64,000 nucleotides of DNA from assembly GCF_008001235.1 (NCBI RefSeq), contig NZ_CP040751.1:2525001-2589000 (forward strand), written 5' to 3'. Shown here piece after piece: positions 62,200-63,760 of the stretch; the stretch's first letter is position 1, and each line of letters begins with the position of its first letter. The notes under the pieces were generated by a model that was given only the letters and a program-made list of their open reading frames with translations, had not been told where the DNA came from and did no database searches. The position numbers were made by a program, and so were the translations under genes. The stretch comes from Salidesulfovibrio onnuriiensis (GTDB lineage Bacteria; Desulfobacterota; Desulfovibrionia; Desulfovibrionales; Desulfovibrionaceae).

Positions 62200-62228
62200 A
62201 AAAAAAGGTCTTGCTTTCACAAGACCTT
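62200..62228 (-). terminator. Terminator of the former tRNA-Ser gene (minus strand)
   Basis: Perfect 9-bp arms (62205-62213 and 62220-62228) with a 6-nt loop are followed by seven T on the minus strand. It lies 10 nt beyond the CCA end of the tRNA-Ser fragment, exactly where a tRNA gene's own terminator is expected. Confidence 0.85.
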
Positions 62229-62238
62229 ATTGAATTCA

Positions 62239-62258
62239 TGGCGGAGAGGGTGGGATTC
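62239..62258 (-). other. tRNA-Ser 3'-end fragment; probable island attachment site (att)
   Basis: The plus strand reads TGGCGGAGAGGGTGGGATTC. On the minus strand this is GAAT (T-loop end), CCCAC (T-stem), CCTCTCC (acceptor 3' strand), G (discriminator) and CCA, the last 20 nt of a serine tRNA. Upstream of it (higher coordinates) the sequence does not continue as a tRNA, so the gene body is missing. A duplicated tRNA 3' end beside a terminator, with foreign-looking DNA on the other side, is the classic product of integrase-mediated island insertion. Confidence 0.82.
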
Positions 62259-62371: not shown

Positions 62372-63760
62372 TCATTGACGCGGAATAAAGCCAGCAAACT
62401 GTGCATGTCGTCTCAATGTTGTTTGAATGGCAGTGGCAATGGTTGATGGCATCGTATTCTCGGCGTTATATGCTTTCAGTTCTACTATTATTTTTGATGG
62501 TAAAATTGGTGTTCTGTCAATAAAAACATCTGCTCGAACTTTGCTATAGGAAGATATTAGTGTTTCCTCATGTACAGCATTTAATCCTATTTGTGATATG
62601 CATGTTGCCAATCTTTTACCCAAGTGTGTTGGTTGCTGGGTTACCGTTGGATACCACGCACGAGCTTCATCAGCACGTTTAGATTCTCGCTCTCTTAACG
62701 GTGCGTATGAATCAGGAGACCAATTTCCCGACGCAACTGATATGAAATGTGTCTTTTGAAATCTATCCAGATAGCTTCTCCCTGGAATATATGAATCATC
62801 ATCGAGGTTTTTGCAGAGAGGGTGAATGTCGGCAGCAGCGATCGGAACGATCCTCACATCAAAATACAATCGTGCCCTGTTGTACTCACGAAGAGGCAAA
62901 GTGTTTTGATCTTCAGAATTCAATTGCCTATACCATGCATTCCAATCAAGCTTGTAGCCCTGTCGAGGGTCAGAAAACTGTTGAACTCTTGATATTCGAA
63001 GACCATCCGTAACTGGCCAAAGAATTACAACCATATAGTCTGAAAGGTCATGAAGGGCTGTAATATACTGGGCAAGTCGGCCACCAACCTCTTCAATGGC
63101 TGAACCAAGGGTAACAGAGTCGTCGCTTATTTGTTGAAGATCCATCTCCAAAATTTCACAATCAGAAAGATCTTTGTCCTGGTTGTGAAACTGAAATGTT
63201 TCTTGAATAATACTTGGCCAGCCCGATTTGTCGATGCTGATAATTTCAAAGTCTTTAGAGACCAGGATGCGCTGATTTCGGCTTGTAGCCGCAGCAAGGT
63301 CGTTCTGAAAGGCGCGGCTTGTGGTTAACCATATAAATAAAATTTGATTGAGGTTGCTGCGATCTCGATCTAGCAAGCTTAACGTCTCGACAAACGTAGA
63401 GGGAACTGACGTGCTTTGGGCAGCAACCTCTTCATATTGATCGACGACAGCAACAAGGCGTCGGCCTTTCCCCTTTTTGGACATTATTTCCAGAGTGTTT
63501 TTTAATGATGAAGCGTCCTCGATCGCGTGACGAGGGAGTTGTTCAACATACAACTCGGGGAGGTGTGTTCCAATTTCTAACGCTGCAGAGGTTTTGCCAC
63601 TTCCACTCTGTCCATAAACAGGAAGAAAACGAATACCGCCGCTAACTTCCATAGAAGCGAAAGCTCGTTTAACAAAAGAAAGTAAAGACTGGTTCGGTTT
63701 CAACCGACCACGAAAAGCCATATCCAAATCTTCATACCGAGAGGGAAGGCGAAGCGACAT
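62372..63760 (-). CDS. nSTAND-like P-loop NTPase with C-terminal PD-(D/E)XK-like nuclease motif (putative defence protein)
   Basis: This 462-residue predicted cytoplasmic protein has Walker A GQSGSGKTS (50-58) and a Walker B-like LVAVVDQYEEV with D107-Q-Y-E110-E111, the DQ(F/Y)EE form seen in novel STAND NTPases. A WLTTSR segment follows (about 150). The middle (200-390) is unassigned. The C-terminus has RADVFI with Asp411, then IIVELKAY with Glu427 and Lys429, spaced as in PD-(D/E)XK nucleases. Codon use is AT-rich. It is the only gene seen in the tRNA-Ser island, read toward the att scar. STAND proteins usually couple ligand sensing to an effector, so immunity by nuclease activation is a reasonable but untested inference. 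Confidence 0.75.
   Translation of the reverse strand: MSLRLPSRYEDLDMAFRGRLKPNQSLLSFVKRAFASMEVSGGIRFLPVYGQSGSGKTSAALEIGTHLPELYVEQLPRHAIEDASSLKNTLEIMSKKGKGRRLVAVVDQYEEVAAQSTSVPSTFVETLSLLDRDRSNLNQILFIWLTTSRAFQNDLAAATSRNQRILVSKDFEIISIDKSGWPSIIQETFQFHNQDKDLSDCEILEMDLQQISDDSVTLGSAIEEVGGRLAQYITALHDLSDYMVVILWPVTDGLRISRVQQFSDPRQGYKLDWNAWYRQLNSEDQNTLPLREYNRARLYFDVRIVPIAAADIHPLCKNLDDDSYIPGRSYLDRFQKTHFISVASGNWSPDSYAPLRERESKRADEARAWYPTVTQQPTHLGKRLATCISQIGLNAVHEETLISSYSKVRADVFIDRTPILPSKIIVELKAYNAENTMPSTIATAIQTTLRRHAQFAGFIPRQ

Follow-up and report, generated by a model that had tools for sequence, protein, structure and literature searches.

P4-like satellites have been described as hotspots of anti-phage genes, including STAND proteins that carry an Mrr_cat nuclease at the N-terminus (PMC9122126, in the part of the paper available to us). 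Another arrangement, PF09820 followed by PF08011, is that of the DUF1703 family, for which horizontal transfer has been proposed and whose role was called unclear in 2019 (PMC6387759, likewise in the part available). One such protein in our comparison (locus L016, 513 residues) has PF09820 at residues 5-201 and PF08011 at residues 415-507; PF08011 was found in 2 of 99 sampled genomes of the phylum studied here. In the same sample, DUF4143 (PF13635), which we take to be a PD-(D/E)XK domain, was found in 62 of the 99 genomes, and it is missing from the genome that is the subject of this work. Eighteen proteins from 20 DUF4143 loci (L031 and L033 were dropped from the hhalign set, having no full-length frame with a Walker A motif) are 388-452 residues long with a Walker A close to the N-terminus, and all four of those scanned have AAA_14 first and DUF4143 last.

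The protein reported here is encoded in a window of 64,000 nucleotides, bases 2525001-2589000 of a complete 3.89-Mb genome. The preliminary description of this DNA could match its order and length, NTPase first and nuclease last in 462 residues, to no named system; the precedents above, at about 390-515 residues (AAA_14-DUF4143 and AAA-ATPase_like-PDDEXK_9), do have that order and size. It belongs to a rare, horizontally spread and conserved family that joins a STAND/AAA-like NTPase head to a probable Mrr-like nuclease tail, and the family is best read as a new family of known architecture. Our searches of the open-licence PMC literature turned up no description of this family, or of the NTPase-first order for a STAND/Mrr pair.

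The Protein and Its Motifs

The gene has an ATG start and no internal stop, and its features are collected in Table 1. The reading frame, D107-Q-Y-E-E111, D411 and E427-L-K429 all lie where the preliminary description had put them. So does the Walker A motif, of which only the lysine has to be renumbered: the sequence G50-Q-S-G-S-G-K56-T-S58 places it at K56 and not at K57.

Table 1. Features of the gene, the encoded protein and the adjoining att site, in window coordinates
Feature	Position	Strand	Observation
Gene for the 462-residue NTPase-nuclease protein, stop codon included	62372..63760	-	Intact open frame; five further homologues
Walker A GQSGSGKTS, residues 50-58, lysine K56	63587..63613	-	G50, S52, G53, G55, K56 and S58 invariant (five members)
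Walker B-like DQYEE, residues 107-111	63428..63442	-	D107, Q108, E110 and E111 invariant (five members)
Middle region, residues 236-316, highly conserved, no family assigned	62813..63055	-	46 of the 80 positions of 241-320 invariant
Putative C-terminal Mrr-like PD-(D/E)XK domain, residues 377-462	62375..62632	-	Mrr_cat match of the L007 piece; low-confidence secondary-structure order
D411 codon, predicted metal ligand	62528..62530	-	Invariant
E427-x-K429 (E427-L-K429 in the window protein), predicted catalytic pair	62474..62482	-	Invariant
Distal att copy, an exact 20-nt repeat of the tRNA-Ser(CGA) 3' end	62239..62258	+	L002:2239-2258; partner at L002:4337-4356, outside the window
Terminator-like hairpin adjoining the distal att copy	62205..62228	-	Stem of 10 pairs with a T tail

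The N-terminus is best read as a STAND/AAA-like P-loop NTPase that falls below the Pfam cut-off for nSTAND1. The nSTAND1 family matched all six members at E ≤ 1, as AAA_16 and AAA_22 did weakly, and the nSTAND1 scores of five members (all but that of locus L013) ran from 20.3 to 26.9 bits, each under the cut-off of 27.1. The earlier label of an nSTAND-like P-loop NTPase can be kept for the P-loop NTPase, but its nSTAND part is sub-threshold, at 23.3 bits for the window protein. This protein gave only sub-threshold matches in Pfam, none in NCBIfam, only Walker-A matches in PHROGs (E 0.1-0.19) and no family among the PADLOC models; with all six members, PADLOC returned PDC-S06 (E 0.0049) and mad3 (E 0.034), both weak and each in one member. 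A sequence search of the PDB with the window protein found no match, and the family profile, at E ≤ 10, found just four matches, all of them weak: TnsC and a second AAA+ ATPase protein at E 1.4 each, and two myosin sequences at E 0.079.

Behind the NTPase, the densest 80-residue run of invariant positions (in 20-residue bins, five members) is that of residues 241-320. Pieces cut from this middle region of the window protein and of the L006 homologue had no Pfam match at E ≤ 5, and the L007 piece had two weak ones (E 0.15 and 0.3). Of the 21 Pfam families that at least one of the six members matched at E ≤ 1, none is a sensor repeat family.

The C-terminus is probably best read as an Mrr-like PD-(D/E)XK nuclease, because one C-terminal piece passes Mrr_cat and the residues E398...D411...E427-x-K429 are invariant, and the preliminary description, which had placed such a nuclease behind the NTPase, was in this respect likely right. 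The acidic E398, upstream of the D...(D/E)-x-K residues, completes the pattern. The piece that passes is that of L007 (23.4 bits against a cut-off of 21; 19.4, below the cut-off, for the whole protein), and the other five pieces, the window's included, gave no Mrr_cat match. Weak matches to HSDR_N_2 or PDDEXK_9 came from the L005, L006 and L007 pieces, with PDDEXK_9 (PF08011) sub-threshold in two of the six (E 0.035 and 0.051); those of the window, L013 and L004 had no Pfam match at E ≤ 5. In the PDB the C-terminal profile had no match, and the L007 piece had two, both at chance level.

Two structure predictions were made with AlphaFold2, each from four sequences, and their confidence was low, with a mean pLDDT of 50.3 for the full length and 40.3 for the C-terminus alone, so that the folds are unproven. 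The full-length model has a helix at 377-390, strands at 394-398, 411-415 and 423-428, and a helix at 438-455, and the C-terminus-only model repeats this helix-strand-strand-strand-helix order. Such an order fits a restriction-endonuclease fold, but at this confidence it is no test of one. With about seven residues left after helix 438-455, the strand that usually closes the core would have to be very short. Foldseek with the full-length model gave no match at E ≤ 0.001; the best 50 of its 919 matches were mostly AAA+ ATPases with TM-scores of at most 0.26, from which nothing was drawn.

Conservation and Selection

Among five members (the near-identical copy of genome G230 having been dropped from the count) 194 of the 462 positions, or 42%, are invariant, and these include E398, R409-A410-D411, E427, K429 and Q454. 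The key residues are unchanged in all six members. An invariant D-x(6-29)-(E/D)-x-K pattern, which was defined after the motif had been seen, arose in 9 of 2000 shuffles when only the last 122 columns were permuted and in 66 of 1000 when the permutation took in the whole protein; on its own, this pattern is suggestive and not decisive. The protein is constrained under purifying selection, as pN was low (0.16-0.34) while pS was saturated (0.78-0.89) in 14 pairs, the pair of the window genome (G000) and G230 being excluded. The coding DNA of that pair is 98.2% identical, and its dS of 0.039 and dN of 0.012 come from only 25 nucleotide differences, with 12 of the 24 differing codons altering the residue; recent constraint on the window copy is therefore weakly tested. 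The GC content of the gene is below that of its locus in all five loci compared, and stands at 0.436 for the window copy.

Homologues and Rarity

The family comprises six members, the window protein and five homologues that are 55-97% identical to it, two of the six coming from one genus. G230, of the same genus as the window genome, has the homologue of 97% identity (locus L013). The others are found in a Rhizomicrobium MAG (77%), in Rhizobium sp. SL86 (66%, locus L005), in Xanthomonas sp. AmX2 (57%) and on the Pseudarthrobacter plasmid NZ_CP047899.1 (55%, locus L007), where the protein is annotated as an 'ATP-binding protein' only. By the frames used, all six are 461-465 residues long. In the Rhizobium frame no start codon (ATG, GTG or TTG) precedes M36, and directly upstream of it we noticed a transposase gene, named by eye as IS256-like (L005:8652-10100); on these two grounds the Rhizobium copy may be damaged.

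The family is very rare, and its occurrence is wide but patchy across several bacterial groups. We found no homologue in the phage records searched or in two scans of viral contigs, one among 72,556 plasmid records, and three in GTDB contigs, where the scan was sensitive to close relatives only. Whole-genome samples, with the centre genome counted, had matches in 1 of 198, 2 of 78, 1 of 385, 1 of 369, 1 of 96, 1 of 20, 1 of 297 and 2 of 247 genomes; these samples overlap, and all of the matches are G000, G230, G275, G276 and G277 only, and they covered bacteria other than Actinobacteria, with first-look filters that could miss distant relatives.

Two Islands at tRNA-Ser(CGA)

The window copy lies in a small island whose locus, L002, is numbered so that 60000 added to a position gives the position in the window. 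The 20-mer TGGCGGAGAGGGTGGGATTC is the 3' end of tRNA-Ser(CGA), and it recurs 2098 bases further along within the intact tRNA gene, which is outside the window at what would be 64337-64432; the 20-mer arose in none of the shuffles of L002. Between the two att copies the GC content is 0.445, whereas the window's other 2-kb steps lie at 0.52-0.62. What had been called an AT-rich, tRNA-integrated island is thus right in kind, with the corrections that the tRNA is beyond the window and that the island measures just 2.1 kb. A 13-pair hairpin immediately follows the 3' end of the intact tRNA, beyond the window. No other stem in the region is as long as this one and the one beside the distal att copy, but the five terminator-like sites there are not above the number in shuffles (mean 3.8, sd 1.9). 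The hairpin at the distal copy would be the original terminator of tRNA-Ser, displaced by the insertion.

In G230, the island that carries the homologue is 9.4 kb long (L013:9475-18882), with the att 20-mer occurring twice, at L013:9475 and 18863, and with a tRNA-Ser(CGA) gene whose 96 bases are identical to those of the window genome's. It carries the homologue, a tyrosine integrase, an AlpA regulator, an ERCC4-type nuclease and a DUF3800 protein, with Arm-DNA-bind_3, Phage_int_M, Phage_integrase and Phage_AlpA all over their Pfam cut-offs; five of the nine ORFs chosen for the scan were without a Pfam match, and none of those five matched PHROGs. The integrase, the AlpA regulator and the tRNA att repeats fit integrative islands in general. 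The G230 island is possibly a phage satellite, perhaps of the P4 type.

The two islands match over L002:2235-4170 and L013:9471-11432 at 93.9% identity. Beyond this stretch, a comparison at E ≤ 1e-3 showed only the tRNA gene and cross-matches of att length; the sequences flanking the islands in L002 and L013 did not match each other, so the sameness of the chromosomal sites cannot be claimed. The identity of the two copies is 80.5% from the stop codon to att, 95.4% in the first 250 bases upstream of the gene and 89.5% (ungapped columns) in the upstream stretch as far as L002:4170; the flanks differ more than the synonymous sites do, and the cause may be decay or replacement of the flanking DNA and not selection. 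Minus-strand frames at L002:4098-4290 (about 64098-64290, outside the window) contain what by eye is a serine-recombinase-like C-terminal end, '...EFDISRQTLYRIIEG' and then a stop, split over two frames, and a similar fragment, also named by eye, is found upstream of the gene in L013.

The window island resembles a cut-down relation of the G230 island that lacks the integrase end, and it may once have held the same genes. The element of the window genome seems to have lost its integrase end while the NTPase-nuclease gene stayed intact. With the same gene in islands of 9.4 and 2.1 kb and with identical tRNA-Ser genes, the pair has the look of an element decaying around a cargo gene that is kept.

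Other Contexts and Partner Genes

Five of the six loci have the copy on or beside mobile DNA. In L004 a tyrosine recombinase lies 0.5 kb from the homologue, and in L005 the genes dus, an integrase, AbiEii and AbiEi lie about 2.7 to 6.5 kb away. The two neighbours scanned in L006 had no Pfam match; beside the homologue of this locus there is, by eye, an apparent partial second copy (L006:8438-9439) of the C-terminal part of a gene of 1359 residues (L006:2843-6922). On the L007 plasmid, genes for TIR-domain and caspase-family proteins and a GTP pyrophosphokinase are within about 6 kb of the homologue; farther out, at about 10 kb, are genes for DUF262 and an EcoRI-type methyltransferase. We also noticed that L007:5937-9499, in Pseudarthrobacter, makes up a defence-like cluster of GTP pyrophosphokinase family, recombinase family, caspase-family and TIR-domain proteins. 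Known defence or Abi genes were near just two of the six copies, as judged from the neighbours scanned or annotated.

A shared partner gene was looked for in stop-to-stop frames of at least 70 residues (six loci, E ≤ 1e-4), setting aside the antisense frames of the gene itself and the flanks common to the two same-genus islands. No neighbour is common to independent loci in a comparison that in L004 extended upstream of the gene for 0.4 kb and in L006 downstream of it for 4 kb, so that a partner beyond could be missed; a shared partner was accordingly rejected, and the gene probably acts alone. The possibility of a one-gene system, raised by the preliminary description, agrees with this result.

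What the Protein May Do

Judging from sequence and context, the explanation to which we give somewhat better than even odds is that the protein is a self-contained NTP-gated nuclease, carried as cargo by integrative elements and most likely defending the cell that hosts it, or the element in which it resides, from phage or plasmid DNA that enters. The preliminary description had likewise suggested phage defence. The N-terminal NTPase (about residues 1-195) would hold the protein off; a signal from the invader, perhaps read by the conserved middle region (about 236-316), would trigger an NTP-dependent change or oligomerisation, and this would license the Mrr-like domain (about 377-462) to cut DNA, which may be the DNA of the invader, as in restriction, or all DNA in the cell, as in abortive infection. 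We favour defence because the motifs are invariant, Mrr_cat is passed by the L007 piece and nSTAND1 matched by all six members at E ≤ 1, the protein is constrained, its contexts are mobile, its GC is low, its loci share no neighbours and the P4 hotspots offer a parallel. Against it count the nSTAND1 scores below the cut-off, the single Mrr_cat match among six pieces, the low-confidence structures, the near-empty PADLOC result, the defence genes near only two of six copies, the rarity of the family, the start of the Rhizobium frame and the absence of sensor repeats.

A bolder form of this explanation, which we offer as tentative and would not bet on, has the protein as a one-gene immune protein in the reverse of the Avs order: a STAND-like switch at the N-terminus, a new conserved sensor in the middle where Avs would have repeats elsewhere, and an Mrr-like nuclease at the C-terminus, spread across phyla at very low frequency by satellite-type islands, other integrative elements and plasmids. 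Were the protein defensive, it would be a compact sensor-effector missed by the defence-gene models searched and small enough for study as one purified protein, and it would supply a function for one member or more of the class that has its NTPase first and its nuclease last.

Of the explanations that compete with defence by a gated nuclease, the one that survives best, unlikely as we hold it to be, is a single-chain type IV-like restriction enzyme, whose NTPase would move on or probe DNA and whose Mrr-like domain would cut foreign or modified DNA directly, with no immune-sensor stage. It would account for the Mrr_cat match of one homologue's piece, and the loci have in common no methyltransferase or other partner, as modification-dependent restriction would expect. 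However, no helicase family is over its cut-off, no known modified-base reader is among the Pfam matches, and in the middle region the window and L006 pieces are unmatched and the L007 piece is matched only weakly.

Quite improbable, in our estimate, is that the family is an undescribed branch of the AAA_14-DUF4143 or AAA-ATPase_like-PDDEXK_9 NTPase-nuclease proteins and shares their largely unknown function. The order is the same and the size similar; hhalign against the 18 DUF4143 proteins aligned profile positions 38-151 with E 0.0012, and its C-terminal run set D411...E427-x-K429 against the D...E-x-K of those proteins. Yet the hhalign probabilities were 19% over the whole length, 32% for the N-terminus (over a different stretch, 149-191) and 2.5% for the C-terminus, the comparison with the single PDDEXK_9 protein gave E 0.23, and AAA_14, DUF4143 and PF09820 were unmatched in all six members at E ≤ 1. 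Membership in either group was rejected in the tests run.

A maintenance or transposition helper, in which NTPase and nuclease would act on the element's own DNA (compare the TnsC ATPase and TnsA nuclease of Tn7, which are separate proteins), is the reading to which we give the least credence: it fits the five of six copies on or beside mobile DNA, TnsC among the four weak PDB profile matches and the serine-recombinase-like fragment (by eye) upstream in both tRNA-Ser copies, but tRNA-Ser islands, an integrase locus beside dus and a plasmid are unrelated elements with the gene alone in common, and loss of the integrase has left the gene intact.

Comparison with Known Systems

Set beside the systems already described, the protein has several partial likenesses. 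The Mrr restriction endonuclease (PF04471) has the same C-terminal core pattern, and one homologue's piece is over its cut-off; in our family the nuclease-like domain is fused behind an NTPase and a middle region, and five of the six pieces are below the cut-off or unmatched. The AAA_14 (PF13173)-DUF4143 proteins, of about 390-450 residues, similarly have a P-loop NTPase first and a D...E-x-K domain last, but neither domain is matched in the new family and the profile similarity is weak. The DUF1703 family has its NTPase in the first 200 or so residues, its PD-(D/E)XK domain in the last 100 or so, and a similar length (PMC6387759, in the part available), from which the family described here differs in lacking PF09820 in all six members at E ≤ 1, in matching PF08011 only below threshold and in having no useful profile similarity to the single sequence L016.

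The Avs proteins have an N-terminal effector domain and a C-terminal repeat sensor, whereas here the NTPase comes first, with Walker A starting at residue 50, the nuclease-like domain comes last, at residues 377-462, and no repeat family is matched. The P4-hotspot STAND proteins, which are relatives of AVAST, share with the protein a STAND-like NTPase, an Mrr-type nuclease and a place on satellite-type elements; they have Mrr_cat at the N-terminus and repeats at the C-terminus, while the present protein has the nuclease-like domain at the C-terminus, 462 residues in all and no matched repeat family (PMC9122126, in the part available). Within what that source describes, these STAND proteins with an N-terminal Mrr_cat are the nearest functional parallel, with the order reversed in the family reported here.
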